Assembly: GCA_902777835.1 (NCBI GenBank)
Contig: CACYVC010000006.1
Span: forward strand, 48,125-112,124
DNA from: an uncultured Bacteroidales bacterium
GTDB lineage: Bacteria > Bacteroidota > Bacteroidia > Bacteroidales > Muribaculaceae
Direction: 5' to 3'
Length of the DNA stretch: 64,000 nucleotides
This document shows positions 6,756-60,963 of the stretch, piece by piece; position 1 is the first letter of the stretch; every line of letters starts with the position of its first letter. Position numbers and translations under genes: made by a program. The notes under the pieces were generated by a model that was given only the letters and a program-made list of their open reading frames with translations, was not told the DNA's origin and did no database searches.

Positions 6756-6790
6756 AACTCTGAACACAAAACTGAAAACTCAAAAACTCA
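6756..6790 (+). repeat. heptad array, AACTNNN type
   Basis: About five degenerate 7-bp units (starts 6756, 6763, 6770, 6777, then one base slipped) fill most of the gap between the PBP1A stop and the nadB start. Confidence 0.7.
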
Positions 6791-6797
6791 ATATATT

Positions 6798-8390
6798 ATG
6801 GTTTACAAATATGACTATCTCATTATAGGTTCGGGCGTGGCAGGAATGAGCTTTGCCCTCAAAGTAGCTGGCACCGGCAAGGTGGCACTCGTGTGCAAAA
6901 GCACCCTTGACGAGGCCAATACCGACCTTGCCCAAGGCGGTGTGGCTAGCGTTACTAATCTCGAAGTAGATAACTTCGAGAAGCACATCCACGACACCAT
7001 GGTGGCTGGTGACTGGCTCAGCGACCCCAAGGCAGTGGAGCAGGTGGTGACACAAGCCCCTGCCCAGATTAAAGCCCTGATAAATTGGGGCGTAGATTTC
7101 GACAAGAACGAGAAGGGCGATTTCGACCTGCACCGTGAGGGAGGCCATAGCGAGTTTCGCATCCTACATCATGCCGACAATACAGGCCATGAGATTCAGG
7201 AATCTCTCATCGAGGCGGTGAAAGCCCACGATAACATCGATATTTTCGACAACCACTTCGCCATAGAGATTCTCACCCAGCACCATCTAGGAAAAATAGT
7301 AACCCGCCGCACACCCGACATACAGTGCTACGGGGCCTATGTACTCAATCAAGAGACAGGCAAGGTAGATACCTTCCTCTCACGCCTCACACTCATGGCG
7401 ACAGGTGGCTGCGGTGCTGTGTATCACACTACTACCAATCCCCTTATCGCCACTGGTGACGGCATCGCCATGGTCTATCGCGCTAAAGGCACGGTACAAG
7501 ATATGGAATTCATCCAGTTCCATCCCACCGCCCTCTACCACCCCGGTGACCGCCCAGCTTTCCTCATTACCGAGGCGATGCGCGGCTACGGAGGCGTGCT
7601 GAGAAACCTTGCCGGCGAGGAATTCATGCAGAAGTATGACCCACGTCTATCGCTCGCTCCTCGTGACGTAGTGGCACGAGCCATAGACAGCGAGATGAAG
7701 CTGCGCGGTGAGGATCATGTGTTCCTCGATGTGACACACAAAGATCCAGAGGAGACCAAGCACCACTTCCCCAACATCTACAAGCACTGCCTTGAGATAG
7801 GCATCGACATCACCAAGGACTACATCCCCGTGGTGCCCGCTGCCCACTACCTGTGCGGTGGCATAAAGGTGGATCTTAACGCCTGCTCATCGATAGAACG
7901 CCTCTATGCCGTGGGCGAGTGCTCATGCACAGGTCTTCACGGTGGCAACCGCTTGGCAAGCAACTCGTTAATTGAGGCTGTGGTATATGCCGAGGCTGCC
8001 GCTAAGCATGCCATAGCCTGTCACAATCACTACGATTATCGCACCGACATCCCTGCTTGGGACGACAAGGGCACCCAGCATCCCGAGGAGATGGTGCTCA
8101 TCAGCCAAAGTGAGAAAGAGGTGGGCGAGATTATGAGCGCCTATGTGGGCATCGTGCGCAGCAATCTGCGCCTCGACCGCGCATGGAACCGACTCGACAT
8201 CCTCTATCAAGAGACCGAAAAACTCTTTAAAGAGAGCACCGTGAGTCGCCGCATCTGCGAGCTGCGCAACATCATCAACGTGGGTTACCTCATCATGCGC
8301 CAAGCCAAGGAGCGTAAAGAGTCGCGTGGATTACACTACACCGTTGACTATCCACCAAAACCCAAGGACGCAGAGGACCTAAAGTTGTAA
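6798..8390 (+). CDS. nadB: L-aspartate oxidase
   Basis: 530 residues from the ATG at 6798; an upstream in-frame ATG at 6711 lies inside the PBP1A gene and is rejected because the flavin fold starts at once after 6798 (YDYLIIGSGVAGMSFAL). Conserved family segments: NTDLAQGGVAS, LHREGGHSEFRILHHAD, ATGGCGAVYHTTTNP, and HGGNRLASNSLIEAVVYAE. NadB oxidises aspartate to iminoaspartate with FAD in the first step of de novo NAD synthesis; quinolinate synthase NadA is not in this window. The gap before it is occupied by a heptad array and shows no clear promoter, so it may be read from the PBP1A promoter. Confidence 0.95.
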   Translation: MVYKYDYLIIGSGVAGMSFALKVAGTGKVALVCKSTLDEANTDLAQGGVASVTNLEVDNFEKHIHDTMVAGDWLSDPKAVEQVVTQAPAQIKALINWGVDFDKNEKGDFDLHREGGHSEFRILHHADNTGHEIQESLIEAVKAHDNIDIFDNHFAIEILTQHHLGKIVTRRTPDIQCYGAYVLNQETGKVDTFLSRLTLMATGGCGAVYHTTTNPLIATGDGIAMVYRAKGTVQDMEFIQFHPTALYHPGDRPAFLITEAMRGYGGVLRNLAGEEFMQKYDPRLSLAPRDVVARAIDSEMKLRGEDHVFLDVTHKDPEETKHHFPNIYKHCLEIGIDITKDYIPVVPAAHYLCGGIKVDLNACSSIERLYAVGECSCTGLHGGNRLASNSLIEAVVYAEAAAKHAIACHNHYDYRTDIPAWDDKGTQHPEEMVLISQSEKEVGEIMSAYVGIVRSNLRLDRAWNRLDILYQETEKLFKESTVSRRICELRNIINVGYLIMRQAKERKESRGLHYTVDYPPKPKDAEDLKL

Positions 8391-8415
8391 TGCACAATTT
8401 ATAATGCATAATCAT
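8389..8415 (+). repeat. nonamer array linking nadB to M28 gene
   Basis: Three 9-bp units (starts 8389, 8398, 8407; ATGCATAA-like content) span the whole gap from the nadB stop into the next ATG at 8414. Confidence 0.55.
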
Positions 8416-9376
8416 GATATTTAAACATCTATTATTAATAACAATAGCTACATTGACATTATTAGGCTGCAAGTCGCAAAAGGCAAGCGAAAGCACTTCT
8501 ATTGTTAATGATACCATCACTCAAGTGGTGAATTTCGATGGCAAGAATGCCTACAATCTGGTGAAGTTACAATGCGACTTTGGACCGCGTGTACCTGGCA
8601 CACCAGCTCACAGCAAATGCGCTGAGTGGTTGGAACAATCGCTAAAGCAGAACTGCGACTCGGTGGTTGTGCAGCAGGGACAAGTCACCACTTTCGACGG
8701 CAAAACGCTCAACATAAAAAATATTGTGGGCAGTGTTAACCCTAGCAACAATGACCGCATCTTGCTGCTGGCACACTGGGACTGCCGCCCCTGGGCCGAC
8801 AATGACCCCGACCCCGCTAACCACCAGAAACCAGTGATGGGCGCCAACGATGCCGCCAGTGGCGTGGCAGTGCTGCTTGAACTGGCACGCTTGATGAAGG
8901 AGAAGAAGCCCAACATAGGCGTGGATATTCTCCTCGTCGATGCCGAGGACTGGGGCACCAATGATGTGGAAGAGTCATGGGCACTAGGCACACAATACTG
9001 GGCAAGTAATCCTCATGTGCAAGGATACACTGCACGTTTTGGCATCCTGCTCGATATGGTGGGCACAAAAGGCGCCAAATTCTACAAAGAATATGAGTCA
9101 ATGCAATTTGCCCCTGCTGTAGTCACCGAAGTGTGGGATGTAGCGCAGAAGAGCGGCTACGGAGCCTACTTCGACAACAACTTTGGCGGCGGAGTCACCG
9201 ACGACCACATTGTGGTAAACGGCATGGGAATTAAATGCATCGACATCATCGACACCCGTCAAGACGGCGGCTTCTTTGACGGCTGGCACACAATCAACGA
9301 CACCATGGACTGGATAGACCAAAACACCCTGAAAGCCGTGGGCCAAGTGGTGGCTAATGTTATTTATAGTTATTAG
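8414..9376 (+). CDS. M28 metallopeptidase-fold lipoprotein, glutaminyl cyclase-like
   Basis: 320 residues. Lipoprotein signal peptide with lipobox LLGC around residue 19. The M28 zinc-site pattern is present: HWDCRPWADNDP (about 119-130), GANDAASGVAVLLELAR with the bridging Asp (about 143-159), DAEDWG (about 174) and VTDDHIVVNG with a metal-binding His (about 260). The HWDxRPxAD segment is characteristic of glutaminyl-peptide cyclotransferases, which form N-terminal pyroglutamate on exported proteins in Bacteroidetes. Its location would be periplasm or outer membrane. Start codon overlaps the end of a nonamer repeat array. Confidence 0.85.
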   Translation: MIFKHLLLITIATLTLLGCKSQKASESTSIVNDTITQVVNFDGKNAYNLVKLQCDFGPRVPGTPAHSKCAEWLEQSLKQNCDSVVVQQGQVTTFDGKTLNIKNIVGSVNPSNNDRILLLAHWDCRPWADNDPDPANHQKPVMGANDAASGVAVLLELARLMKEKKPNIGVDILLVDAEDWGTNDVEESWALGTQYWASNPHVQGYTARFGILLDMVGTKGAKFYKEYESMQFAPAVVTEVWDVAQKSGYGAYFDNNFGGGVTDDHIVVNGMGIKCIDIIDTRQDGGFFDGWHTINDTMDWIDQNTLKAVGQVVANVIYSY

Positions 9377-9401
9377 TTTATAGTTATTACATACGTTAAG
9401 A
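9367..9401 (+). repeat. heptad array, TAGTTAT type
   Basis: Five 7-bp units (starts 9367, 9374, 9381, 9388, 9395), related in reverse complement to the AACTNNN arrays. The first units include the stop codon of the M28 gene. Confidence 0.7.
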
Positions 9402-9417
9402 GTTTTCCTAAATCACA

Positions 9418-10854
9418 TTGGCACAAGTTAAGGCACATAGCGAACGCTCATCGAAGTTTTTAAAAGACCTCGGCATCTATGCCATCGGAAACCTGGGATC
9501 CAAGATCATCACGTTTGCGATGGTAGCTGTCTATACTTTCTACGTTAGCAAGAGAGATATGGGCTACTATGACCTGTGTCTGACTATAATCTTCTTGCTA
9601 ATCCCGTTTGTGACGCTGCAATTGCGCGACGGAGCCTTCAGATTCCTGCTTGAGACCGATGACAGACAACGACGAAGCAAAATCATCACATATATTTATC
9701 GCACCCTCGTCACAAGCACCATAGTATCGCTGGTTGTAACCATCATGCTTGCCCTGTTTACCAGCATTGAATATGTGTGGTATTGCTTCATGCTTCTCAT
9801 TGCTATGTCGTTTTTTGAGGTAATAACACAAGTGGCACGCGGTTTGGGCAAGAACGTGGAATTTGTTGCTACAGGAATCATCTCCTCATTAGGAATATTT
9901 GTGTTCAGCATTGTGTTTGTAGTGATTTTGCCATGGGGCATCACCGGCATTTTCATATCCAATATTCTGGCACGCATTGTGGCACTGGCCTACCTAGAAT
10001 GGCGCATGAAGATTATTGCCACCTACTTCAAGTTTAAAATCAACATCAAGCAAGTGTCGCATGACCTCATCAAGTACTCACTGCCACTATTGCCAGGCTC
10101 GATCTGCTGGTGGCTTACTGGCAGCAGCGACCGTTGGTTCATCAACCACTTCTTGGGTCTCGAAATGAATGGTGTGTATTCTGTAGCATTTCGTTTCAAC
10201 AGCATCATTCTCATCCTGTCAACGATATTCTACCAGGCTTGGCAGGAGACAGCTATCTTGCAGTATAATAGTCCCGATCGTGACAAGTTCTTCTCCAAGA
10301 TGTTCAACACCTACATTGGCGTACTAGCCATCTTGCTCACGGGCTATTCCTTCTCACTGAAAATAATTTACCCATATATTGTTGACATCAGTTATCAGGA
10401 GAGTGTTAACTATCTTTACCTTATGGGCATCTCTGCTGTGCTGTTTGCCTTGGTGGCATTTTTCGATATGGGCTACCAGTGTGCTAAAGACACCGTTAGC
10501 ACATTGCCCGCCATTGTGCTGGCTGCCATTGTCAACATTGTGTGCAACTTCGTGCTTGTCAAGTGCGTTGGCGTGTATGGTGCCATCGCCACATCAATTA
10601 TCACATATTTCGTGCTCTTCTTGTGGCGCCTGCACGACATGAAACGCTACTTCAAGCTCACTTTCTTTCCCACAACCACGATTGCTGTGATTATCATTAT
10701 TATTGGCTCAATCGCATTCCATTTCTTCAGCTCGTGGTGGATCTTGCTGCTCTATATGGTCGCAGCATGCGCTCTGGCATTATTATCGATTCCCAAAGAA
10801 ACACTCTATGAGATGAAGAATAAAGTGATTCAAAAATTTGGAATTAAGCAATAA
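9418..10854 (+). CDS. polysaccharide flippase, Wzx/MATE-like
   Basis: 478 residues with about 12-14 hydrophobic segments across the whole length, matching the oligosaccharide flippase (Polysacc_synt) family that moves undecaprenyl-linked repeat units across the inner membrane. The start is TTG at 9418: no ATG or GTG occurs in frame between the upstream stop and the first membrane segment (IYAIGNLGSKIITFAMVAVY), and the next ATG at 9520 would delete part of it. The use of TTG suggests modest translation. It opens the exopolysaccharide locus, followed by export, kinase and polymerase genes on the same strand. Confidence 0.85.
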   Translation: MAQVKAHSERSSKFLKDLGIYAIGNLGSKIITFAMVAVYTFYVSKRDMGYYDLCLTIIFLLIPFVTLQLRDGAFRFLLETDDRQRRSKIITYIYRTLVTSTIVSLVVTIMLALFTSIEYVWYCFMLLIAMSFFEVITQVARGLGKNVEFVATGIISSLGIFVFSIVFVVILPWGITGIFISNILARIVALAYLEWRMKIIATYFKFKINIKQVSHDLIKYSLPLLPGSICWWLTGSSDRWFINHFLGLEMNGVYSVAFRFNSIILILSTIFYQAWQETAILQYNSPDRDKFFSKMFNTYIGVLAILLTGYSFSLKIIYPYIVDISYQESVNYLYLMGISAVLFALVAFFDMGYQCAKDTVSTLPAIVLAAIVNIVCNFVLVKCVGVYGAIATSIITYFVLFLWRLHDMKRYFKLTFFPTTTIAVIIIIIGSIAFHFFSSWWILLLYMVAACALALLSIPKETLYEMKNKVIQKFGIKQ

Positions 10855-10911
10855 TAGCAGTAAATAAACGTTAAGAAATTAATATACAAAATATAAATTG
10901 ATACAAAGTTT

Positions 10912-11721: not shown

Positions 11722-11757
11722 CGTTTTAAACCCATACTCATTTTTTAATTCTCAAAC

Positions 11758-26399: not shown

Positions 26400-26423
26400 T
26401 AGTTAGGTCCTAGCTCTAAAAAT

Positions 26424-26459
26424 CTAGAGGACCTAGAGTGTCTAGAATATCTAGAAAAC
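26424..26459 (+). repeat. nonamer array, CTAGNNNNN type
   Basis: CTAG recurs exactly every 9 bp at 26424, 26433, 26442 and 26451 downstream of the second CotH gene. Confidence 0.85.
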
Positions 26460-26460
26460 G

Positions 26461-26488
26461 ACTCTCGATCCCCGATCCACTATCCTCG
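26461..26488 (+). repeat. heptad array, ATCCNNG type
   Basis: Four 7-bp units (starts 26461, 26468, 26475, 26482) directly after the nonamer array and directly before the palindrome at 26488. Confidence 0.75.
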
Positions 26489-29638: not shown

Positions 29639-29669
29639 AAGTAGTAAGGTTAAGTTTAAAGTGTTAAGA
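29639..29669 (+). repeat. heptad array, GTTAAGT type
   Basis: Three to four 7-bp units between the permease start and rbfA, next to the palindrome at 29671. Confidence 0.6.
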
Positions 29670-34697: not shown

Positions 34698-34925
34698 CAA
34701 TGACAGAAACCAGAGGTGTTATAATTGTCAGGACAACTTTTGAAAAAATGGGGACAACCGCTGTAAAATACATGAATTTTTGTGTAACAATGTGGACACT
34801 TCTAGCACATAATTCTCTATACAACAGACATTTACAATACCCACACAAATTCGTTGATTTTTGCACTGAAAAAAAAGCGTTTTTCATTAAAAAACTGCGT
34901 TTTTTGCCTTGATAGCAAGAAAAAA

Positions 34926-34967
34926 AACTAAAAACTAACAACTGAAAACTAATAACTGAAAACTATT
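34926..34967 (+). repeat. heptad array, AACTNNN type, upstream of DUF3467 gene
   Basis: Six units in perfect register, AACT at 34926, 34933, 34940, 34947, 34954 and 34961. The array ends 3 bp before the -7 box and occupies the place of the -33 element. Confidence 0.9.
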
Positions 34968-35018: not shown

Positions 35019-35342
35019 ATGGCAAACGAAAACAAGAAACAAAACCAGATTCAAATTGAAGTTCCTAACGATGAAATGCAGGGCCGCTATGCAAACCTTG
35101 CCGTTATCTCTCACTCTCCCAACGACTTTGTGATGGATATGATATTTGTGGCTCCTAATACTCCTAAAGCACGCGTACAAAGTCGCATCATCATGACTCC
35201 CGAAAACGCTAAGCAACTGCTTTTCGCGCTCAAGGAAAACATCGATAAATATGAGGCACACTTCGGCGAAATCAAACCCCGCCAGATAAATAATCCCAAC
35301 AACGGCATCATGGACTTCCCCCTGCCTAAGGGACAAGCCTAA
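35019..35342 (+). CDS. DUF3467 domain protein
   Basis: 107 residues, usual size. Family features: GRYANLAVISHSPNDFVMDM, a proline-containing turn, and RIIMTPENAKQLLFALKENI. DUF3467 proteins are widespread small proteins without known function. It stands alone, with its promoter joined to a heptad array and a nonamer array immediately after its stop. Confidence 0.88.
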   Translation: MANENKKQNQIQIEVPNDEMQGRYANLAVISHSPNDFVMDMIFVAPNTPKARVQSRIIMTPENAKQLLFALKENIDKYEAHFGEIKPRQINNPNNGIMDFPLPKGQA

Positions 35343-35345
35343 TTT

Positions 35346-35417
35346 CATAATTCACAATGCATAATGCACGATGCATAATATTCTAGTAAATCTAGTTAAT
35401 CTAGAAATTCTAGGAGT
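35346..35417 (+). repeat. nonamer array between DUF3467 gene and cysS
   Basis: Eight 9-bp units in one register (starts 35346, 35355, 35364, 35373, 35382, 35391, 35400, 35409). The first half is ATGCATAA-like, the second half TCTAGNNNN, so two motif types share one phase. Confidence 0.85.
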
Positions 35418-36914: not shown

Positions 36915-36919
36915 TAAAT

Positions 36920-36954
36920 AGTTAAGAGTTAAGAGTTCATAGTTAAGAGTTTTA
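36920..36954 (+). repeat. heptad array, AGTTAAG type (inverted orientation)
   Basis: Five units starting 36920, 36927, 36934, 36941, 36948, the reverse-complement orientation of AACTNNN arrays. The 11-mer 36934-36944 is an exact inverted repeat of 36982-36992 in the next array. Confidence 0.85.
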
Positions 36955-36974
36955 GAGCACATTTCACCGCTGCC

Positions 36975-37016
36975 AACTATAAACTATGAACTGTGAACTA
37001 TGAACTGAGAACTAAT
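36975..37016 (+). repeat. heptad array, AACTATG type, running into a start codon
   Basis: Six units in perfect register (36975, 36982, 36989, 36996, 37003, 37010); the last unit supplies the first two bases of the ATG at 37015. Confidence 0.9.
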
Positions 37017-41580: not shown

Positions 41581-41610
41581 CAAAGTTACAAATAATCTGT
41601 AACACAACAA
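41581..41610 (-). promoter_or_regulatory. promoter of mtaB operon
   Basis: Minus-strand TTG (41608-41610), 19 bp, TAACTTTG (41581-41588), 21 bases before the ATG. Confidence 0.6.
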
Positions 41611-41626
41611 CTAAAAACTAAGAACT
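41602..41626 (+). repeat. heptad array upstream of mtaB
   Basis: AACT at 41609, 41616 and 41623, period 7, overlapping the mtaB -33 region. Confidence 0.65.
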
Positions 41627-41695
41627 TATATAATTTCTTCCTACTATTCTACGTTAATAGTATATATTATATATTATTTAAACCGATAATTATCG

Positions 41696-44600
41696 ATGAA
41701 AAATATCAAGCAATGGCATCGCATAGCGGTTGTTGCTGTTTTCTTGTCGCTGATGTGCAGTGTCACATCCAGCGCATTTGACTTCAGCGTCAACAACATA
41801 TACTACAACATCAACGATAAGACGCTCACCGCCGAAGTGACCTATGGCAATAGTTACAACAGCTATAGCGGACAGGTTGTCATCCCAGCCACCGTGAGCA
41901 ACAACGGCAAGGCATATGACGTCACTGCTGTGGGCGAAAATGCTTTTCGTGACTGCTCGGGACTAACAAGCGTGACATTTGGTTCTAACGTGACAACGAT
42001 AGGCAAGCGGGCTTTTCTCAACTGCTCGGCTCTAGCCTCAGTCAACATCCCCAACGGAATAACTGAGATTAAAGACTATGCCTTTGCTCAATGCGGCTCG
42101 CTGAGCACAGTGATCATGAACAACGACTCACCTTTGCAGGTGGGTAATGGAACGTTCATGCGCTGCTCCTCGCTGAAAAATGTGAAATGGCAGTCGTGCG
42201 AAAACTTGGAAGGCCGTGGCGGACTCACAACCTTAGGCACCAACGCTTTTGCCTATTGCACCTCGCTAACCAGCATTATGCTGCCTGGCGATATTCAACT
42301 CATGGGCACCTCCATCTTCAATGGCTGCACCTCACTCACTAGCATCACTGTTACTGCCGAGCAGCCTTTGGTTGTTACTGGCGACCCATTTTCACTAAAC
42401 AGTTCGGTTACGATATATGTGCCATCGTCGGGGCAGGCTGGTGTGACCGCTTCGCTTTACCAGAATGCCATTGGCTGGCGCAACTACAACATCACTGAGC
42501 TACCCTACTCCTTCATTGATAATGACGGATACACATATCTAAAGACCTCTAGTAGTACCGTTGCCCTCTCGGGAATGTTTAACCAGAGCACTGTGGTGAC
42601 TGTAAGAGATAGTTTTAAGGGGTATAGTGGTGAGAATTACTATGTAACCAGCATTATTGACCAATTATTTAAAGGCTCGAGTGTCACAACCCTCAACACA
42701 AGTAATGCTTTCCACTTAGAATCCATTGGCACCGAGTGTTTTGCTGGTTGCGCTCAACTCACCACCATAATACTCAACGAGGGTATCTCATCTCTTGGAG
42801 AAAGAGTTTTTGCCAACTGCAACAAGCTGACCTCAGTGCAGATTCCTTCAACTCTGCGCACAATCTCTAAGGGAACTTTTCAGAATTGCTCTAAACTCAC
42901 GAATGTGAATCTATTGCGAGGTGTATCCACAATCTGTGAGAACGCTTTTGCCAACTGCACAAGCCTCACAACGTTCTACTTGCCTAGTTCTGCTACATGC
43001 GTTGAGTATAATGCCTTTAAGGGGACGTCTGCTCTAACAGAGATAATCGTTGCCCCCAACTGCCCTTTCTTCTCCTCGGTTGAAGGAGTGCTCTACGAGA
43101 TGAAATATGGCATAGGCTTTGACCTTGAAGAAGCCAACGAGTTTAGCAAACTGGCAGTATATCCGTCCAACAAAGCCGACGAGATGCTATACATCCCGCC
43201 TGGCGTGACTGAAGTCAAAGCTGCGGCACTACAAAACGCCACACATCTCAGGAAAGTGGCAATACCGCCCACAACCACCATCTTTGGAGAAGACTGCTTT
43301 GACGGCACCAATATCCAATTAATCAACTACCGTTGCAATGACCCAACCAACGATGGCACTTTAGGTATCACCTCAGCACTTAAAGCCAATGCTACATTGC
43401 AGGTGCCCGTGGGCACTATGGGCAAATATCAAGCTCTTGAGGCATGGCAAGGATTTAGCAACATAGTCGAGCGTTATGATGTGTATAGCGACAACCAGTT
43501 TGTCTATGACTGGAACTCAAGCAACCAAGTGACATTATTGGACATAAAACCCGCTGCTGTTAATGCCAGTGGCACAGTTACCTTGCCATTAGGAATGACC
43601 CTAAACGGTCGCCTCTATGTGATTACCGAGCTCAAAAACACCGCTACGGCGCAAGTGGCTCAACAGGTAAAAAATCTAACAATGGGCTGTGATAGTCTCG
43701 CCATTATTGATTTGAGTGGTGACATAAACCCCTTTGCTACCCTCACTTCGCTCGAAGCAATCTCCATTGGCGAGAGCAACTCCCATTTCAAGATTATTGA
43801 CAATGTTCTCTATAACAAGCGAGGCAATCTCGTCTATTACTATCTACACTCTAAAAATCAGGAGTCGTTCTCTCTGCCAAGTGAAGTAGATACTATCATG
43901 CCTCAGGCTTTTGCCCAGAACCACAATCTAAAAATTCTCACATCAAGCTTAAATCTCAAACATTTTAGTAATAAAAGCTTTGAGGGATGTACTGCACTAC
44001 ACACCGTTGACAGCATAAAAAATGTCACGAGCATAGGCCGTCGCGCCTTTGCCGGATGTACCGCCCTGACCACCATTAATGGCGGAGAGCGTCTTAGCTC
44101 TATAGACAATGAAGCATTCCTCAATTGTAAAAAACTACGGCAATTCCCTTTCATTCATGGTCTAATCACCTCTATAGGCAGTCATGCCTTCAAGGGTTGT
44201 TCCTCTCTAAATGTGGTAGTGTTAAGCAACAAGCTCAGCAGCATTGGTAAAGGTGCATTTGAGAACTGTACAAGTCTAAGCAAGGCGTTCCTCACCAGCG
44301 ATATCAAGAACTTAGGAAACCAGCTTTTCAAAGGCTGCACTTCGCTCAGTGAGCTGTGGCTTTACAACACCACCCCACCACAAGTGGGCAGCGATTTTTT
44401 TGAGGCATCGGCAAACATCACGCTTTTTGTGCCTGAAGGAACCACCAGCGCCTATCAAACCACCGCGCCCTGGAGCAATGCCTCTCAAATCAACACCTGC
44501 CATTACCTATATAATGGAGCCGATGTTAATAACGACAGGGCAATCAATGCTTATGACATAACCTTTTTGTACTCAGTGCTGCTCGGGGATATCGACATCG

Positions 44601-44989
44601 ACATCACTGAACACTGTGATGTAAATCTTGACGGCGCAATCACTGCAGCCGACATTTCCATGATTTACGACTATATCCTTACTGGTACAAATTCATCTAT
44701 GCCTTATAGTTTTATCGATAGCAATTATGACGGTGTCAGTCCTTACATTTCATTGGCATCAGGGACTCAGAGAATATGGGTTTTGAGTCACTATACCAAC
44801 CATTATGTGACTAGCGGAGTTTTAGGTATCAGTGATAACACACACGTGGCAAACGTCATACTAGGCACCAGCCAGGGATCTCAATATTTGGATATAGTAC
44901 CCGTCACTCAAGGCTACTTCACACTTGTGGCAATAGTGAACAACGGCACCACTTATTACTACGGAGCATTCCCTATAATAGTAAAATAA
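41696..44989 (+). CDS. large BspA-like LRR protein with internal dockerin
   Basis: 1097 residues. Signal peptide about 1-27. Many LRR_5 repeats (AFRDCSGLTSVTF, AFLNCSALASVNI, CTSLTSIML and similar) run from about 70 to 920, interrupted by non-repeat segments. A dockerin-like pair (GADVNNDRAINAYDI, CDVNLDGAITAADI) lies near 940-995, followed by about 100 residues of a beta-rich tail not found on the other dockerin proteins here. Such proteins mediate adhesion or binding at the surface. Upstream is AT-rich and shared with the divergent mtaB promoter. Confidence 0.9.
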   Translation: MKNIKQWHRIAVVAVFLSLMCSVTSSAFDFSVNNIYYNINDKTLTAEVTYGNSYNSYSGQVVIPATVSNNGKAYDVTAVGENAFRDCSGLTSVTFGSNVTTIGKRAFLNCSALASVNIPNGITEIKDYAFAQCGSLSTVIMNNDSPLQVGNGTFMRCSSLKNVKWQSCENLEGRGGLTTLGTNAFAYCTSLTSIMLPGDIQLMGTSIFNGCTSLTSITVTAEQPLVVTGDPFSLNSSVTIYVPSSGQAGVTASLYQNAIGWRNYNITELPYSFIDNDGYTYLKTSSSTVALSGMFNQSTVVTVRDSFKGYSGENYYVTSIIDQLFKGSSVTTLNTSNAFHLESIGTECFAGCAQLTTIILNEGISSLGERVFANCNKLTSVQIPSTLRTISKGTFQNCSKLTNVNLLRGVSTICENAFANCTSLTTFYLPSSATCVEYNAFKGTSALTEIIVAPNCPFFSSVEGVLYEMKYGIGFDLEEANEFSKLAVYPSNKADEMLYIPPGVTEVKAAALQNATHLRKVAIPPTTTIFGEDCFDGTNIQLINYRCNDPTNDGTLGITSALKANATLQVPVGTMGKYQALEAWQGFSNIVERYDVYSDNQFVYDWNSSNQVTLLDIKPAAVNASGTVTLPLGMTLNGRLYVITELKNTATAQVAQQVKNLTMGCDSLAIIDLSGDINPFATLTSLEAISIGESNSHFKIIDNVLYNKRGNLVYYYLHSKNQESFSLPSEVDTIMPQAFAQNHNLKILTSSLNLKHFSNKSFEGCTALHTVDSIKNVTSIGRRAFAGCTALTTINGGERLSSIDNEAFLNCKKLRQFPFIHGLITSIGSHAFKGCSSLNVVVLSNKLSSIGKGAFENCTSLSKAFLTSDIKNLGNQLFKGCTSLSELWLYNTTPPQVGSDFFEASANITLFVPEGTTSAYQTTAPWSNASQINTCHYLYNGADVNNDRAINAYDITFLYSVLLGDIDIDITEHCDVNLDGAITAADISMIYDYILTGTNSSMPYSFIDSNYDGVSPYISLASGTQRIWVLSHYTNHYVTSGVLGISDNTHVANVILGTSQGSQYLDIVPVTQGYFTLVAIVNNGTTYYYGAFPIIVK

Positions 44990-46544: not shown

Positions 46545-46579
46545 ACTTAACACTTAACACTTTAAACTTAACACTTAGT
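46545..46579 (+). repeat. heptad array, ACTTAAC type, before GH3 gene
   Basis: Five units (46545, 46552, 46559, 46566, 46573), ending 7 bases before the TTG start. An imperfect GC-rich palindrome (near 46530-46542) precedes it. Confidence 0.8.
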
Positions 46580-46586: not shown

Positions 46587-48110
46587 TTGCTTAATTTCAC
46601 ACCCATAGCCCGTCCACGGTTGCTCTCGCGCTTGAAAGATCATGCGCGCTACATCGACCATGCCGATAGTGTGCAGCAAGAGCAACTGGTTAAGCTTATA
46701 GAGAAAGCTGCCTTAACTTGGTTTGGCCGCAAATATGATTTCTCAACATGCCGCACCTACAAGGAGTTTGCCACTCGCGTGCCTCTTTATCGATATGAAG
46801 ATATTCAGCCACAGATTATGCGCATGGTGGGTGGTGAGAAAGACGTGTTGTGGCCTGGACGATGCTTTAACTTCGCGCAGTCGAGCGGCACTAGCGACGG
46901 CAACCACAAATACATCCCCATCACCCCCGAATCGCTGCGCTGGAATCACTATAAAGGTGCCAGCGATGTGGTGTCGCACTATATCAATCTAAACCCCGAT
47001 AGCCGACTGTTCTCGGGCAAGGCCCTGATACTGGGCGGCTCATTTGCTAATGAGTTGAACCTTAAGCCCGGCACCCGTGTGGGCGACCTCTCGGCAACGC
47101 TTATCAATAATATCAACCCTATCGCCAACTTTTTCCGTGTGCCCGACAAACGCACTGCACTGCTTGAGGACTGGGCCGAGAAATTGCCAGCACTCGTCGA
47201 GAAGAGTAAAGGCGAAAACATCACCAACCTGAGTGGTGTACCCTCGTGGTTCCTCACTGTCATCAAAGAGGTGCTGCGATCAACAGGCAAGGACTGCATC
47301 CACGACGTGTGGCCCAACCTCGAGGTGTTCTTTCACGGCGGCATAGCCTTTGAGCCTTACCGCGAGCAGTATGAACGCCTGTGCGATATGAGCAAGATGC
47401 ACTTCCTCAACACCTACAACGCCAGCGAGGGATTCTTCGCCACACAGAGCGACTGGGGCACCACGGCGATGTTGTTGCTGCTCGATGTGGGCGTGTTCTA
47501 CGAGTTTATCCCGCTGAGCGAAGTCGATAGCAACCACCCCGATGTGCTACCCATCTGGGAAATTGAGAAGGGCAAGACCTACGAGCTTATTATTACCGCA
47601 TGCAACGGACTATGGCGCTACCGCATTGGCGACACGGTGCACATTGAGCAGCTAAATCCTGTGAAGATTAATATCGCAGGGCGTACCAAGAGCTTCATCA
47701 ACGCCTTTGGCGAGGAGCTGATGGTGCACAATGCCGACAAGGCGATAACCAGCGCTTCGCAAGACACTGGGGCACAGGTGCTAAACTATACCGCAGCACC
47801 CGTCTATGCTGGCGACAAGAGCAAAGGCCGTCATCAGTGGCTTATAGAATTTGAAAAGGAGCCTGCTAGCATTGACGAGTTTGCTGCCTTGCTCGACAAA
47901 TATCTCCAACAGGACAACGGCGACTATCAGGCAAAGCGCTACCAGAGCATCTTCCTTGATGCCCCCGAGGTGGTGGTTGCACGTCGCGGCATCTTCGACC
48001 AGTGGCTAGCCTCAACAGGCAAACTTGGCGGCCAGCGCAAAATTCCCCGCCTCAACAACAACCGTACCGTCATCGACCAGATGCTTAGTCTAATGCATAA
48101 TACCTTTTAG
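46587..48110 (+). CDS. GH3 auxin-responsive-like acyl-adenylating enzyme
   Basis: 507 residues. Start is TTG at 46587, since the family N-terminus (LNFTPIARPRLLSRLKDHAR) begins there and no ATG is in frame nearby. Adenylate-forming signature: FAQSSGTSDGNHKYIPIT, then NTYNASEGFFATQ and WRYRIGDTVHIEQLNP. Plant GH3 enzymes join amino acids to hormones through acyl-adenylates; bacterial members are common in Bacteroidetes, with unknown substrates. It is a single gene with its own promoter. Confidence 0.88.
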   Translation: MLNFTPIARPRLLSRLKDHARYIDHADSVQQEQLVKLIEKAALTWFGRKYDFSTCRTYKEFATRVPLYRYEDIQPQIMRMVGGEKDVLWPGRCFNFAQSSGTSDGNHKYIPITPESLRWNHYKGASDVVSHYINLNPDSRLFSGKALILGGSFANELNLKPGTRVGDLSATLINNINPIANFFRVPDKRTALLEDWAEKLPALVEKSKGENITNLSGVPSWFLTVIKEVLRSTGKDCIHDVWPNLEVFFHGGIAFEPYREQYERLCDMSKMHFLNTYNASEGFFATQSDWGTTAMLLLLDVGVFYEFIPLSEVDSNHPDVLPIWEIEKGKTYELIITACNGLWRYRIGDTVHIEQLNPVKINIAGRTKSFINAFGEELMVHNADKAITSASQDTGAQVLNYTAAPVYAGDKSKGRHQWLIEFEKEPASIDEFAALLDKYLQQDNGDYQAKRYQSIFLDAPEVVVARRGIFDQWLASTGKLGGQRKIPRLNNNRTVIDQMLSLMHNTF

Positions 48111-48112: not shown

Positions 48113-48173
48113 GAGAAGAAAGTGTGGAGAGTGGAGAGAAATTTAAGTTTTTAGCAGTTAGTATTTAGTTTTT
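48113..48173 (+). repeat. heptad array after GH3 gene
   Basis: AGTTTTT-type units at 48146, 48153, 48160 and 48167, preceded by GGAGAG-type 7-bp units from about 48113. Confidence 0.65.
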
Positions 48174-48211: not shown

Positions 48212-48295
48212 TTACGAAAAATTTCGTTACGAAAAATTTCGTAATATGAATAATATCATTTATCTTTGCGAAAAATTTCGTTACGAAAAATTTCG
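48212..48295. promoter_or_regulatory. four-copy 15-bp operator around AAA-ATPase promoter
   Basis: TTACGAAAAATTTCG or one-base variant at 48212-48226, 48227-48241, 48266-48280 and 48281-48295: two tandem pairs exactly 54 bp apart. The core CGAAA-AA-TTTCG is a palindrome. The -7 box TATCTTTG (48261-48268) lies between the pairs; the second pair covers the transcription start and ends 6 bases before the ATG. Confidence 0.85.
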
Positions 48296-49445: not shown

Positions 49446-52400
49446 ATGGATTTAAATCAATATGTTGAAGAGTTGAATAGGCAGTACCATACTGGTTTGG
49501 CTCGAGAGCACTCATATCGTCCTGCGTTGAAAGAACTTTTGCAGAGCATGCTCCCAAATATGGTTGTAACTAATGAACCTGCTCGCTTTGAGTGTGGTGC
49601 CCCTGACTTTATTATATCTCGTGAGAATGACAATCTTCCTGTTTTCTTTGTTGAGGCCAAGGATGTGGGAGACACCGACCTTGATGGCAATAGAGAAAGC
49701 CAGCATAAAGAGCAGTTTGACCGTTATAAACAGGCGCTTGACCATATTTTCTTCACTGATTATCTTGATTTCCACTTATATGAAAATGGTGAGTTTGTTG
49801 ATAGCGTTCGTATTGCCGACATAAAGGGTGACAGAATTGTTGCTATCATTGAAGCAGAAGACAAGTTTTTGGGATTAGTACAGCATGTGGCCAATTCTGC
49901 GATGCAGAGAATTACTTCTGCATCTAAACTAGCGAAACTTATGGCAGGAAAAGCACGACTTCTATCAAATATTATTGAGACTGCCATGAGTGACAATGCT
50001 CAAACTTATGATAATGATAATCTTCAGGGGCAGTATAATGCTTTTAAAAATGTTTTGATACATGACTTGGGGCCAGCCGAATTTGCCGATATTTATGCAC
50101 AAACAATAGCATACGGTATGTTTGCGGCTCGATTGCATGATGACACCCCCGAGAGTTTTAGTCGTGAAGAAGCCGCTCGCTTGATACCAAAGACAAATCC
50201 CTTTTTAAGGCAGTTTTTTAATCATTTGGCAGGGAATGATCTAGACCAGCGGATTGCGTGGGTTGTAGATGATCTTGTTTCTTTATTTGCAGTTACCGAC
50301 ATACAAAGGGTTATGACATCGTATGGTAAAAACAAACTTCATCATGACCCAATGATTCATTTCTACGAAGATTTTCTCGCTGAATATAACCCAGAACTAA
50401 GAAGATCTAAAGGAGTTTGGTACACACCACAACCTGTTGTGGGATTCATCGTGCGAGCGGTCGATGAGATTCTTCAGCGAGAATTTGGATTAAAAGAAGG
50501 ATTGGCAGACTATTCCACGATTGACCGCCAGGTGGCTGCTGAGCAGATTCATGACAAGCGTACTAAAGATGGCATGAAGCACATTATGAAAAGTTTTCAT
50601 CGCGTTCAGATACTGGACCCAGCTACCGGAACTGGTACTTTCTTAGCTGAAGTAATAAATCAGATTTACGACCGATTTCGTAATCAACAAGGCATCTGGC
50701 AACAATATGTTGAGAATCACCTGATTCCTCGACTGAATGGCTTTGAAATCTTAATGGCTTCGTATGCTGTAGCTCACCTTAAACTTGATATGCTTCTAGG
50801 AGAAACAGAATATCAGCATAAAACAGACAAGCGATTACATGTTTATCTAACCAATTCTCTTGAAGAAAGCAACAATGAGCATCGGTCATTATTTTCTCAA
50901 TGGCTAGCTCGTGAAGCTACGGAAGCAAACATCATTAAGCGCGAATATCCTGTAATGGTGATTATTGGCAATCCTCCTTATTCCGTCAGTAGCCAGAATA
51001 ATGGGAAATGGATAACAGCTCTTATTGCTGATTATAAGAAGAATTTGAATGAACGAAATATTCAACCTCTGAGTGATGACTATATCAAATTCATTAGATT
51101 AGGACAGTATTATGTGGAAAAGAATGGAGAGGGAGTGTTGGCTTTTATTTGTAATAATTCATTTGTAGATGGTATAATACATCGTCAAATGCGTAAAGAA
51201 CTAATGAGAGCATTTGATAAAATATATATTCTTGATTTACATGGCAATAGTCGTAAAAAAGAGACTGCTCCTAATGGTGATAAAGATGAAAACGTCTTTG
51301 ATATTATGCAGGGCGTAAGTATTAACATATTATGCCGAGTTCATAATATATCATCGTCAAAATGTCAAGTATATCATTATGATTTGTATGGTAGTAGAGA
51401 AGATAAATACAAATTTCTAGATAGCCATCAGATTTCGGATGTTTCATGGACAGAGTTGATCCCTAAAGAACCACAGTATTTTTTTGTACCAAAAGATTTC
51501 ACAGGACAAGAAGAATATGAGAGGTGGTTTAAAATAGATGATCTGTTTTTGTTGTATAATTCTGGGATTAAGACCCAAAAAGATAAAGCTTCTATTTTCT
51601 TTACAAAACAAGATGGGATTTCTCTATTTAATGATTTTATCAATCTCCCAGTAGCATTTCTGAAAAGAAAATATCAATTTACTAATACAAGGGACTGGCG
51701 ATTAGAATTAGCTAGAGAAGATTTATTAAAAAATAGTGTTATATATACACAATATTGTTATCGACCCTTTGATTACAGATATTGTATCTATACGGGAAAA
51801 ACAAAGGGAATAATGGGTTATCCTCGTCATGATTTAATGAAAAACTTGTTGAACAAAGATAATGTTTCGCTACTAACTTGCCGACAAGAAGCAACCTTTG
51901 ATTTTCAACATGCATTTGTCACAAAATATATCTCTGATATGTGTAGCATTTCTTCACAGACCAAAGAAAGTGGTTATGTATTTCCTCTCTTTATTTATAA
52001 AGAAGAGAATGGTGTAGACAAGTGCGTTCCAAATTTTAATACTCAAATAGTTATGGAAATAGTTAAATCATTAGGAGAGAGAGTAAATCCTTTTGAGCTT
52101 TTTGACTATATCTATGCTGTGCTTTATTCTCCAAGTTATCGTGAGCGCTACAAAGAATTTCTAAAAATAGATTTTCCTCGCATACCTTATCCCAACAATG
52201 CTGATACATACCATCATCTTGCAAACAAAGGTGCAGAATTACGCCACTTGCACTTAATGGAGGGTTTACCAAATGAAACAGGTGTTACATTTCCAGTGGT
52301 AGGATCGATGCAAGTTGACTATTTTCGATGGCATAATGATAGGGTGTATATCAATACAGACCAGTACTTTGAGAATGTGTCAGAATTGGCTTGGAAATTC

Positions 52401-52559
52401 TACATTGATGGCTACCAACCTGCGCAAAAGTGGCTAAAAGATAGGAAAAGTCGTACTCTGAGTTTCGAGGACGTGAAACATTATGAGCGTATCATTTATG
52501 TATTAAGTCAGACAGACCAGATTATGTCTGATATTGATAAGTTAATGTGGAGAGAGTAG
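49446..52559 (+). CDS. fused restriction-modification enzyme, type IIG/ISP-like
   Basis: 1037 residues. N-terminal PD-(D/E)xK nuclease: D54 in GAPDFIIS and E70-x-K72 in FFVEAKD. A helical linker leads to an N6-adenine methyltransferase with SAM motif [11 protein letters not shown] (about 389) and catalytic NPPY (about 508) in [10 protein letters not shown]. The C-terminal half (about 560-1037) has the character of a type ISP target-recognition domain ([40 protein letters not shown]). The helicase of true type ISP enzymes is absent, so one chain would cut and methylate in IIG fashion. No separate methylase or specificity gene is near. More AT-rich than flanking housekeeping genes. Confidence 0.88.
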
Positions 52560-54223: not shown

Positions 54224-54258
54224 GATTGAGAATCGAGGATCGAAAATCGGAGATTGGG
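54224..54258 (+). repeat. heptad array, ATCGANN type
   Basis: Five units in register (54224, 54231, 54238, 54245, 54252), 15 bp before palindrome copy B. Confidence 0.85.
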
Positions 54259-54293: not shown

Positions 54294-54333
54294 AAATGGC
54301 AGGGATGAGGCGAGCCCCATCCCTAATAACTAC

Positions 54334-58062: not shown

Positions 58063-58133
58063 TACCCAGCTATATCTTGCCTGATATATCTATTAAAACG
58101 AAGGAAGGGTGGTTTTATTGCATTGAAACTAAT

Positions 58134-58196
58134 GGAAAGAGGAACGAGGAAAAAGGAAAGAGATTCCACGTCCCACCTTCCAACTTCCACGAAAAA
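58134..58196 (+). repeat. heptad array, GGAAAGA/ATTCCAC type
   Basis: Nine units in one register from 58134 to 58196: four GGAANNA units, then four NNTTCCA-like units, roughly complementary halves, between porW and the terminator. Confidence 0.75.
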
Positions 58197-58197
58197 A

Positions 58198-58231
58198 AGA
58201 TGCACTCGCATCAGCGAATGCATCTTTTTTT
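58198..58231. terminator. bidirectional terminator of adhesin-like gene
   Basis: 12-bp arms (58198-58209 with 58214-58225, one mismatch), 4-base loop, T runs on both strands. Confidence 0.85.
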
Positions 58232-58246
58232 CAGTGAGAAGAAAGC

Positions 58247-60730
58247 TTATTTAATAACCACTTTCTTGTTACCGTTGATGTAGATGCCTGGAGTAACGGG
58301 CTTGCCGTTGAGCTTCTGACCGTTGAGGTTGTACCACTCGTTGCTCTGGCTGTCAACAGCGATTGTGCTGATTGCGCTAGGATCATCCTTGGTGACAGTC
58401 ATAAAGACTGCGCCGTTGAAGTCTCTCAGAACAGCCAGTTGAATGTTGTAAGTGCCAGCCTCTTCAACACGGAAGTTTGCACCGCTGTCGCCTTGCACAG
58501 TCATGATACCTTGACCCATGAGGTCGTCGTTGAGCAGGAAGTAGCCAACGCCGTTAGTGTCCTCGCCACCAAACCAGATAGTGCCAGCCTCGTCAAATGC
58601 GATAACCTTGAACTCGGCGCCAGCCTCAAACTCGACACCTTCGATCTTGTCGTTCTCGTCGAATGCTAAGCGGCCACCCTCTTCAGTTTGGTTCCACTCG
58701 TTGAATGTACCCACAAGGAAGAAGCCCTCCTCAGGCTCAACAGGAGCCTCGAGAGTTGTGAAGAATACGCTCTCGGTCCACTCGGTAGTACCCTTCTCCT
58801 CGAAGATACCCTGCACCTGTACCTCATAATCGGTTTCTGGAGTAAGATCCTCAATGGAGTAAGGACTAGTTACGCCTTCGGCAGTGATCCACTCGCCGTC
58901 CTCAATAACTGTTTCTGGATCTTGGATCAGGAAGTTGTCGAGGTTGAGACGGAACATGTCGGTGCAGTTGAAGTGACGGATGCCAATATAACCCATATGG
59001 CCTTCGTAAGCGCTCAGGTCGGCAGTGTATTCAACATAATGTCCTTCGGCAACGGTCTCTGGGATGAGTTCCACAAAGTCGGCAACATCGGTGTTGCCAG
59101 CTGTTGAAACATAAACTGCGAAGTGCTCGGCAGCATAACCTGGATCCTGACCGCGGAGCCACATCCTGAGAATACCCTTAAGCTCAACCTGTGGAGAAAT
59201 CAACCAGTCATCGGGAGTAAGTGCAGACTGCATGTAGCTTGCCGAAGTCATGCAAGCACCACCAAACACGGTAGGATTGCCATTGCCATCGGCAGTGTTG
59301 GTAGGAGCGAAGATGTACCAAGCATAGCCATCGCCGTCGGCATCAATAGTGGTCCAGCCGCTCTCGGTTGGGAAGTCTCCACTCTGGAGGCCCTCATACT
59401 CGAAGCCCTCAACCTCGCCACCAGGATAGCCAACAGTGCGATAGCGCACGTTGTAGGTCTCTTGCTCGCCTTCCCAGTTCACAGTGGCAGTAGTTGCAGT
59501 AACGTCGGTAACCTCTACGTTCTTTACCATGCCTTGTCCTGGAGCTGGAAGCATGTAGGTAGTGAGAACGACATTGGATGATTGTCCTGTACCTCTAATA
59601 ATCTCGGCTCCGTCGGGGCCTGTGAGGACATAAGAGCACTCGCCAGGATAGCTGCCAAGCTTCCAGCGGATGGTGTATTCAATGCCATAGCACAAAGCAA
59701 CAGTGCCTGAGGCAGTGTTGCCCGTTGTGATGGTGAGGGTCTCAACCACAAGACCATTAGGTGCCACAATCTCGATGGCGTTGCCATTCCAGCCGTCGCC
59801 ATAAGAGTCGGTGAGCTGATAGGTGATTTCACCCATGTCGTCGGGATCGCACAATGGAGTAGTGAAGGTAGTGTTTACCCAACCACTGGTGTTGCCGTCA
59901 CCTGCATTGGCACGCACGCGTGCATAGTACTCGGTGCCGTTGTCAAGTGCGTCAAGATCGATAGTTGGAGCGGTAACAGTTTCGGCAGTCCACTCCTCAT
60001 CGGCAGCCTTCTTGTACTCAACATCCCAAAGGGTCTCGGTGCCACCGGGTGTCCAGCTCAAAGTAGCGTTGTTGGGGCCCAGGTTGCTCACTTGCAGGTT
60101 AGTGGGTTTGGTCACAACCACGCCACCCGAGGGAACGTAGGTGAAGGTGGTCTTTGGGATGAAGTTGCGCTGGGTTGCGGTAACAGCGTCAAGGCTATTT
60201 GAGTTGTAACCGGCAACCGAAGCACCATCTACAGTCTGGCCATAGAAGTACATAAACTTGTAACCAGCATCGGTAGTGTTCTCCATACCAATGAGCAGGT
60301 TACCACCAGAATATACATAAGGAGTGGCAAACTCAATGGTCATCTCTCCACCATCACCAGCTTCATTAGCCACAATACTCACTGTGCCTTGATACACTAT
60401 GGTTGCGTTAGCTTTGGGCTCAAAATCGCTGATGGCAGTGTAGCCAACTTCCATCAAGTAAACATCGGCTGTTGAAACCGAGGTGTAAGGAACGTTTTGA
60501 GTTGTTGTGTAGAATGTAATGGCACTGATGGTGGCGCCATTCATTTCTGCCAAATCGGCAGCGGGAATAACATACTGGCTTCTTGTGAAGTCATCCCAGT
60601 AACCCATGTAGGTGGGAACATAGCCATTGGTGCCTCCCTCTCCTTCATACACCGTCAACGTCTGCTGTGCAAAAGCGGTTGTGAAAGCCGCTACCACAAG
60701 CAATAATAGAGATAATAATTTTTTGTTCAT
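58247..60730 (-). CDS. secreted FN3/choice-of-anchor J protein with type IX-like tail
   Basis: 827 residues. Signal peptide 1-21 (cut after AFA). Order of domains: an N-terminal beta domain (about 25-205), a fibronectin type III domain (about 210-295), a beta domain with LTDSYGDGWNGNAIEIVAP, a second FN3 segment, a choice-of-anchor J/cleaved-adhesin domain (about 440-610: WLISPQVELKG, GYIGIRHFNCTDMFRLNLDNF), an FN3 end, a SusE/F-like starch-binding-type domain (FLVGTFNEWNQ), and a C-terminal sorting-like tail (WYNLNGQKLNGKPVTPGIYI). Likely surface delivered by type IX secretion. Paralogue of the next gene. Confidence 0.88.
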   Translation of the reverse strand: MNKKLLSLLLLVVAAFTTAFAQQTLTVYEGEGGTNGYVPTYMGYWDDFTRSQYVIPAADLAEMNGATISAITFYTTTQNVPYTSVSTADVYLMEVGYTAISDFEPKANATIVYQGTVSIVANEAGDGGEMTIEFATPYVYSGGNLLIGMENTTDAGYKFMYFYGQTVDGASVAGYNSNSLDAVTATQRNFIPKTTFTYVPSGGVVVTKPTNLQVSNLGPNNATLSWTPGGTETLWDVEYKKAADEEWTAETVTAPTIDLDALDNGTEYYARVRANAGDGNTSGWVNTTFTTPLCDPDDMGEITYQLTDSYGDGWNGNAIEIVAPNGLVVETLTITTGNTASGTVALCYGIEYTIRWKLGSYPGECSYVLTGPDGAEIIRGTGQSSNVVLTTYMLPAPGQGMVKNVEVTDVTATTATVNWEGEQETYNVRYRTVGYPGGEVEGFEYEGLQSGDFPTESGWTTIDADGDGYAWYIFAPTNTADGNGNPTVFGGACMTSASYMQSALTPDDWLISPQVELKGILRMWLRGQDPGYAAEHFAVYVSTAGNTDVADFVELIPETVAEGHYVEYTADLSAYEGHMGYIGIRHFNCTDMFRLNLDNFLIQDPETVIEDGEWITAEGVTSPYSIEDLTPETDYEVQVQGIFEEKGTTEWTESVFFTTLEAPVEPEEGFFLVGTFNEWNQTEEGGRLAFDENDKIEGVEFEAGAEFKVIAFDEAGTIWFGGEDTNGVGYFLLNDDLMGQGIMTVQGDSGANFRVEEAGTYNIQLAVLRDFNGAVFMTVTKDDPSAISTIAVDSQSNEWYNLNGQKLNGKPVTPGIYINGNKKVVIK

Positions 60731-60797
60731 AAAAAACGGTTTTAGTTAATAATATAGAAAATAAACACTAAGAATAATCATAGAAACATTTTCAGCG

Positions 60798-60829
60798 CAA
60801 AGATAATAATCTATAACAAAAACACCAAA
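60798..60829 (-). promoter_or_regulatory. promoter of adhesin-like gene
   Basis: Minus-strand TTTG (60826-60829), 20 bp, TATCTTTG (60798-60805); leader about 60 bases. Confidence 0.7.
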
Positions 60830-60903
60830 AATAACTACCACAAATTATAGATTTGAAGAAAAATTTTATTTAAACTATTATTTCCACCAAAGCTACAACT
60901 TGT

Positions 60904-60963
60904 GAACGGGAATCGGAGATAGAAGATCGGAACTGTGAACTATGAACTATGAACTATGAACTA
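60904..60963 (+). repeat. composite heptad array
   Basis: Units at 60904, 60911, 60918, 60925, 60932, 60939, 60946, 60953 and a partial at 60960. The first are GATCGGA-like, the last are ACTATGA, all in one phase, joining the two motif types seen separately elsewhere. Confidence 0.9.

Follow-up and report, generated by a model that had tools for sequence, protein, structure and literature searches.

Heptamer arrays, intergenic tandem arrays of degenerate 7-bp units, were analysed in a 64,000-nucleotide stretch (the window; contig CACYVC010000006.1, positions 48,125 to 112,124) of the genome of an uncultured Bacteroidales bacterium of the family Muribaculaceae, and in genomes of its relatives. 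The arrays are a real, strong and genome-wide feature, and their main regularity is that each family of units has a preferred direction relative to the adjacent gene end. They belong to a kind of element that is known but unexplained and are not an unnamed novelty. Their period, place, orientation and register with codons, changes in length by 7 bp in one sister pair and replacement of the filler in orthologous gaps were all observed directly. As an explanation we tentatively favour, at somewhat short of an even chance, that these are 7-bp slippage arrays anchored at gene ends and kept where they cannot run into the gene.

Autocorrelation was calculated for the 36 intergenic gaps of the window (3954 bp, delimited with a crude open reading frame (ORF) caller, with 20 bp of padding on each side) and compared with 100 dinucleotide shuffles. 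Identity at lag 7 was 0.3365 against 0.2883 in shuffled sequence (z 7.45), with further excess at the multiples of 7 (lag 14, z 4.7; lag 21, z 3.3); a smaller excess was also seen at lag 3 (z 4.8) and lag 6 (z 2.3), and the remaining lags from 4 to 20 gave z values from -1.8 to 2.0. A first-pass annotation, made by reading the window alone, had listed 13 places with such arrays. All were viewed as rows of 7 bases, and the top local lag-7 score of each was compared with 1000 shuffles of the same 90 bp. The shuffle fraction was 0.023 or less at 12 of the 13, the weakest of these being 9367 (0.023), which is clear at lag 14, and the arrays reported there are thus borne out; the score at 29639 was not significant against its own shuffles (fraction 0.075). 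The description of the 7-bp register as strict was slightly overstated, the period being clear but the array at 6756 containing a one-base shift. Comparison of lag-7 autocorrelation with shuffles, together with a check of the rest of the genome, had been set beforehand as the test that could refute the arrays; the excess holds, and the shuffles are without it. A coding period and misassembly were ruled out as sources, since the arrays are intergenic and recur in the genomes of other species, and 7 is not a multiple of three.

The genome under study (G000; other G numbers denote genomes of relatives, and L numbers loci) comprises 2.89 Mb, of which about 30% was sampled as the window and 40 stretches of 20 kb (864 kb). 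Our own ORF caller delimited 645 genes and 505 gaps of at least 15 bp in this sample, and an array was scored where one 5-mer occurred three times at fixed spacing. Period 7 was found in 65 of the 505 gaps, period 9 in 15, periods 8 and 10 in 3 each and period 12 in 1; periods 5, 6, 11 and 13 were found in none. A different score, applied to the first 464 kb with multiples of 7 set apart, returned 35 arrays of period 7, two of period 4, three each of periods 9, 12 and 15 and five of period 18, and none of period 5, 6, 8, 10 or 11. A search of the whole genome for four consecutive AACTNNN units gave 443 matches, counted as overlapping positions and not as arrays; the reversed pattern gave 0. 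At least one such match was present in 31 of 37 genomes of the genus, hundreds in some, and none in the other 6; in other families of the order 6 of 24 genomes had matches, three of them above and three below the reversed control. A sample of G009 contained 17 period-7 clusters in 109 gaps, no such cluster was found among 78 gaps sampled from the array-free G012, and period 7 also remained the commonest when 69 contigs of other Bacteroidales were examined (17 of 443 gaps). One relative, G016, had 0 AACT arrays but 40 matches to the reversed control, as if another core, of TCAA type, had replaced AACT. In a further relative, MAG62, we observed a period-10 array with a TTGAAC core (L059:4179) and a period-8 CTAAGCGN array (L059:4872), from which it appears that the period may differ between species.

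The 65 array-bearing gaps comprised 55 between co-directional genes, five convergent and five divergent (of 367, 66 and 72 such gaps). TAnnTTTG was taken as the promoter motif, and among co-directional gaps of 40-319 bp arrays were present in 41 of 185 without this box and rarer, in 9 of 84, with it. The arrays therefore prefer promoterless gaps between co-directional genes, which lends no support to the earlier suggestion that they are promoter spacers. The direction of the units followed a single outward rule. In G000, AGTT and TAAGT runs of at least three units led away from the adjacent gene in 52 cases and toward it in 5. Outward AGTT runs of this length lay near stop codons (13) and near start codons (21), all 21 of the latter presenting as AACT toward the start codon, 0 to 42 bases from it, with 0 in the opposite direction; the five inward AACT runs all followed stop codons, four of them at a distance of at least 17 bases, and 0 lay near start codons. 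Outward TAAGT runs numbered nine near stop and nine near start codons, against 0 and 0 for ACTTA. Counted by gap half and including doublets, five cores gave 87 outward and 14 inward cases (outward:inward AGTT 39:8, TAAGT 27:1, GTGGA 10:2, CGTTT 6:2 and GATTA 5:1), and ATCG doublets were outward nine times, CGAT 0 times. For AGTT, TTAGG and TAAGT in species outside those in which the rule was discovered (G009, 28 cysS loci, G082 and G083), 39 cases were outward and 2 inward. The first-pass annotation had called the gaps otherwise unrelated, which overlooks this common orientation and the operon setting.

Co-directional gaps with arrays (n=94) were strand-biased, with a GT content of 0.534 after stop codons and 0.444 before start codons, whereas array-free ones (n=176) were unbiased (0.459 and 0.466); general base composition was ruled out as the cause of the arrays by this lack of bias. 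The stop codon was in array register in 7 of 16 TAAGT and 7 of 12 TAGTT arrays and the start codon in 13 of 35 AACT arrays, where 1 in 7 is expected. Matching arms occurred in the same gap at about chance level for AGTT (2 seen, 1.3 expected) and TAAGT (1 seen, 0.7 expected), which suggests that every array is tied to a gene end of its own; for GTGGA, one such pair was seen and 0.09 expected. Canonical units near the gene and odd ones distal to it were also counted as a possible age gradient, and no clear trend was found.

The AACTNNN units of G000 (277 units) are better described as AACT-V-W-N: position 5 was T in 10 of 277 (not T in 267) and position 6 was G or C in 12 (A or T in 265). AACT was followed by 35 different trinucleotides, GAT being one of them in 19 of the 277 units. 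The claim that two motif types recur proved too narrow, further recurring heptamer families being TTAAGTG, CGATAAA, GTGGAAN, GATTAGN and TGCATAA in addition to ATCGNNN, and TTAGGNN in G009, where TTTAGGC...CCTAACT stood in one gap. The main cores AGTT, TAAGT, CGTTT and TGCATAA are without runs of three G, which some ATCG-type units have.

The period-9 companions consist almost entirely of one ladder, TCTAGNNNN, which accounts for 14 of the 15 period-9 gaps. Its combination of a six-base palindrome with three further bases fits minimal hairpins with 3-nt loops. In the TCTAGNNNN arrays of the window (26422-26456 and 35382-35413, both missed by the first-pass annotation, as was a TGCATAA array at 35344-35379) and at L036:8378-8420 and L199:15266-15322, neighbouring spacers were often of ABAB type and never identical. 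When CTAG units were compared over all loci, other Bacteroidales included, neighbouring spacers were identical in 0 of 108 cases (about 54 without the double counting of strands) and units two apart in 24 of 71, these counts being mostly doubled by the use of both strands. TAAGT arrays alternate as well, with 7 of 45 neighbours identical against 14.6 expected; in AACT arrays the alternation is weaker in G000 and not significant at other loci. In the gap downstream of cysS in some congeners (L147, L155 and L144) the period-9 role is taken by CTATAGNNN, and CTATAGNNN ladders with varied spacers were present in 5 of the 149 genomes of the family that were searched, including G085 of another genus.

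Orthologous gaps were aligned, as the first-pass annotation had proposed, to follow the gain and loss of units. In the closest pair, G082 and G083 (90.8% identity over 2973 bp), 46 orthologous gaps included 2 with arrays in both species, 4 with an array in one species and 40 with none, by the criteria used here. One shared array differed by three 7-base and two single-base indels, so that gain or loss of 7-bp units was indeed seen, in this one array, and its two extra units were placed away from the start codon; the other shared array was almost unchanged. Among the four one-sided gaps, one differed by three substitutions only and three did not align. Comparison of the window with six relatives (33 gap-by-relative comparisons) gave arrays in both in 9, in one in 15 and in neither in 9. 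The gap between cysS and a glycosyltransferase gene (36915-37014) is homologous in G001, at a different length and with changed spacers and retained cores at 36975-37014; at the same place G069 had ATCG-type units and ACTTA heptamers, G066 had TGCATAA and TCTAG units and G030 had no array. The arrays are thus neither hypervariable nor fixed, and fillers are also swapped whole in orthologous gaps.

According to the explanation favoured here, heptamer (and fewer nonamer) arrays would arise and change in length by replication slippage or tandem duplication in steps of 7 bp, often 14 bp. Their birth would take place at gene edges, mainly in promoterless gaps inside operons, and most survivors would share an orientation in which the strand where G exceeds C leads away from the gene, at stop and start ends alike. 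They would be mutational products filtered by the next gene, those invading or disturbing it being lost, as opposed to dedicated sites for a binding protein. The simplest such filter may be polar growth, in which new units would join the G-richer strand at its distal end and could not invade the gene behind. A filter on composition would need opposite demands at stop and start codons, and one-ended growth would therefore be the simpler single cause: an array pointing at a gene would destroy it and one pointing away would not. Of the three interpretations offered in the first-pass annotation, slippage-made spacers is the best supported, given the gain and loss of 7-bp units and the identity of units two apart above that of permuted arrays (40 of 129 AACT units in G000, expected 27.4); its overall reading is upheld in that part and not in the promoter spacer or in the view that no named element fits.

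Several results weigh against this explanation. If slippage alone were at work, neighbouring units should resemble each other most, yet AACT units at distance 1 in G000 were identical in 27 of 168 cases, below the 36.1 expected from permuted arrays; at other loci of the genus (one G000 locus included) 36 of 112 neighbours were identical, which did not differ significantly from the 37.6 expected. Slippage accounts neither for cores common to many loci of one genome nor for CTAG arrays with never-identical neighbouring spacers, and the array at 35382-35413 is retained in G069, where both core and spacer carry substitutions and there is no change in units. Support for polar growth comes from a single ortholog pair. 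The outward rule itself is weaker when GT content is scored per cluster (near stop codons 21 of 29 and near start codons 19 of 20 in G000; 10 of 18 in G009), divergent gaps of G000 are mixed (five AACT/AGTT runs with the rule, three contrary), and the array at 54224 in the window breaks it by reading toward a gene. An outward bias by GT content was not seen in the 69 contigs of other Bacteroidales (11 outward, 12 not), so that the rule is shown here for the one genus alone.

A function at the level of RNA is a possible though doubtful alternative. G-poor, open leaders before start codons would serve ribosomes that initiate without Shine-Dalgarno pairing, arrays after stop codons would form a matching 3' element, and the core would be read by a ribosome-associated or RNA-binding protein, a proposal made for TAACTGA repeats (PMC4679880). 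The preference for promoterless co-directional gaps, the frequent abutment of arrays on start and stop codons, the restriction of unit positions 5 and 6 and the retention of cores with change of spacers between the window and G001 at 36975-37014 are in line with such a function, as is the direction of the Beggiatoa TAACTGA sets, 147 of 170 of which point to start codons in the same sense (Table 1 of PMC4679880). However, orthologous gaps can be without arrays altogether, and the cores of the orthologous array in G083 (L204) are mutated. The same rule also applies after stop codons and in Xanthomonas, a GC-rich genus, where a common leader function is unlikely. Moreover, 50 of the 277 AACTNNN units carry ATG, many of them just before a start codon, which counts against an RNA-level function in view of the under-representation of AUG just before start codons in Bacteroidetes described in PMC6847099. 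We consider it unlikely that the arrays serve in termination, processing or coupling through intercistronic RNA hairpins, whether these are built from AGTT/AACT arms or from palindromic TCTAGA/CTATAG units around 3-nt loops. Folding of the 12 period-9 gaps is much stronger than that of their shuffles (mean z -4.4, with 11 of 12 below -2), the window gap 36915-37014 has a folding z of -5.3 and long inverted arms were found in the cysS gap of several congeners, but a palindromic core folds by construction, the heptamer gaps (n=41) have a mean folding z of -1.29 compared with -1.88 for gaps with weak arrays (n=29) and -1.74 for array-free gaps (n=153), and there is no clear excess of matching arms per gap for the two main families. 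As a general cause of heptamer arrays, RNA hairpins are thus unsupported by folding and arm statistics, although the period-9 gaps do fold strongly.

The outward orientation in co-directional gaps, where the two arms converge on the middle of the gap and the G-richer strand leads in each, and the meeting of different families in one gap (as in G009) would also be consistent with scars of end extension. A broken gap would then be repaired by extending each 3' end with repeat units, set by a dedicated enzyme or RNA template, before the ends are joined, as in a head-to-head telomere fusion. We regard this as quite improbable. Several unrelated cores per genome would require several templates. With the RVT_1 model and draft genomes, no reverse transcriptase was found in G007, G009, G032 or G033, which have 192-325 AACT matches each, and reverse transcriptases were present in G003, G012 and G016, with 0 AACT matches; they do not track the arrays, and the presence of one in every array genome that would mark a telomerase-like system was not observed with this model in these drafts. 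Ku was found in 0 of the 61 genus genomes searched. Neither reverse transcriptase nor Ku is accordingly supported as a general cause. A more general and rather improbable reading is that heptamer arrays found between genes in several bacterial phyla, though unrelated in sequence, are the work of one telomere-like polar process that lays 7-bp units away from gene ends, the G-richer strand leading, via an enzyme or RNA template, the period-9 palindromic ladders (TCTAGANNN and CTATAGNNN) being relatives. Finally, a constant core with a variable spacer, seen also in the CTATAGNNN ladders of the family, would suit a ladder of sites, 7 bp (and 9 bp) apart, for a DNA-binding protein. Such a ladder is very unlikely given several unrelated cores per genome under the same placement rule, the 6 of 37 genus genomes without any AACT match and a direction set by the nearest gene end, which a symmetric role in occupancy would not need.

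The individual arrays of the window are given on the forward strand unless stated otherwise. AACTNNN or AGTTNNN units form the array with the one-base shift at 6754-6791 (shuffle fraction 0.004), just 5' of the start codon at 6798, an array of six cores with spacers AAA, AAC, GAA, AAT and GAA at 34923-34965, 5' of the gene at 35019, and the two arrays of the cysS gap, AGTTNNN at 36920-36951 after the cysS stop codon (36914; its homologue in G001 differs in length) and AACTNNN at 36975-37014, which runs up to the glycosyltransferase start codon (37015). Three AACTNNN units (41609-41629) lie within 41602-41629 in a divergent gap (shuffle fraction 0.007). A 14-bp unit, TATAGTTATTAG, is repeated at 9363-9389 with the TAG stop codon (9374-9376) in register and AGTT leading away from the gene that it ends. 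Weak TAAGT-like units at 29639-29668 did not reach significance (0.075), and the orthologous gaps of G001 and G069 contain clear TTAAGTG units; ACTTAAC heptamers at 46545-46577, the TAAGT family read outward, lie 5' of a gene starting at 46587 (TTG) or later. ATCGNNN-type heptamers were found on the reverse strand at 26461-26488, leading away from the stop codon of the right-hand gene (26502; lag-7 fraction 0.002), and at 54224-54258, reading toward a gene whose stop codon (54334) lies about 75 bp away, too far for the array to enter the ATCG doublet count. At 60904-60963 ATCGNNN units are followed in one phase by AACTNNN units, as the first-pass annotation had noted, and the AACT part, read as AGTT, leads away from the right-hand gene. 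The TGCATAA heptamers at 35344-35379 directly follow the stop codon at 35342 and have a similar array in G069. Next to them, the four-unit period-9 TCTAGNNNN array at 35382-35413 is, like the TCTAGNNNN array at 26422-26456, assigned to neither strand. GAGAGTG-type units at 48113-48140 follow the stop codon at 48110, and GGAAAGA heptamers at 58134-58162 lie 71 bp from the left-hand gene and read away from it.

The gap after 48110 also contains, at 48212-48295, a 15-bp TTACGAAAAATTTCG array of five copies with indels, which is unlike the heptamers in kind, and one gene away from the 48113 array a Type ISP restriction-modification enzyme (Pfam) is encoded at 49446-52559. BspA-type leucine-rich-repeat proteins with dockerin type I domains (Pfam) are encoded at 102-827 and 41696-44989. 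Rfam gave 0 matches at the gathering score in the window, and ARAGORN found no tRNA there.

Contrary to the remark that no named element fits, published intergenic heptamers include those of Xanthomonas and Nostoc (PMC4692102), as well as those of Beggiatoaceae, cyanobacteria and five Bacteroidetes (PMC4679880). The GGGAATC and GGGGA(C/T)T heptamers of Xanthomonas and Nostoc are described as lying mostly on the non-coding strand where they precede a gene and on the coding strand where they follow one, in most cases no more than 50 bp away, with some overlapping stop codons and convergent pairs close together; they are placed mostly between co-directional genes, with divergent gaps under-represented and lengths differing between species, and their functional role was, according to the authors, still to be found (PMC4692102). 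The arrays reported here share with them the tandem 7-bp intergenic units and, with the exceptions given above, the outward repeat strand at both gene ends. Positions 1-4 and 6 of the xanthomonad unit are conserved (PMC4692102); here positions 1-4 were fixed by the search itself, position 6 is limited to two bases and position 5 is restricted too. Unlike the single quadruplex-forming G-tract motif of those genomes, cores here are AGTT, TAAGT, ATCG and, in G009, TTAGG, without GGG in the core. The main cores lack quadruplex-capable G-tracts, and the formation of quadruplexes is therefore an unlikely cause of the common rule. Tandem heptanucleotides of Calothrix go by the name STRR, and for these, as for long simple sequence repeats, we know of no orientation rule that has been described. 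Both the Calothrix heptanucleotides and the long simple sequence repeats, with their heptanucleotide excess, are recounted in PMC4692102 and PMC4679880, and resemble the present arrays in the preference for period 7, for which a link between slippage and the footprint of a polymerase has been considered.

Most TAACTGA sets lie just upstream of start codons, pointing toward them in 147 of 170 sets of the Beggiatoa genome, one Flexibacter set after a stop codon is reversed, and translational control was suggested as their role; in Cyanothece, heptamer arrays differ by 'mostly indels in 7 nt increments' (PMC4679880). AACTGAT is among the units found here, where AACT likewise stands close 5' of start codons in the same sense, and the TAACTGA repeats of Beggiatoaceae are compatible with the outward rule. 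TAACTGA is not the general unit, as the low frequency of GAT after AACT indicates. Heptamers related to TAACTGA seldom form repeats in the Beggiatoa genome, whereas most arrays here consist of units that differ in their last three bases, and they occur beside other cores. In the portions of the two papers drawn on here, neither links the quadruplex-type heptamers with the TAACTGA repeats (PMC4692102; PMC4679880), and within the limited literature searched we found no publication on such arrays in Muribaculaceae. What is new is that one outward rule covers several families, that these have alternating companions of period 9, and that arrays can be traced through gain, change and loss within one genus. 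The placement rule of Xanthomonas and Nostoc holds here for several unrelated, non-quadruplex cores and so needs neither a quadruplex sequence nor a single motif, and this weighs against the G-quadruplex as a shared cause. The genus includes species rich in arrays, others free of them, and orthologous gaps at several stages, and so makes the origin of bacterial heptamer arrays testable.

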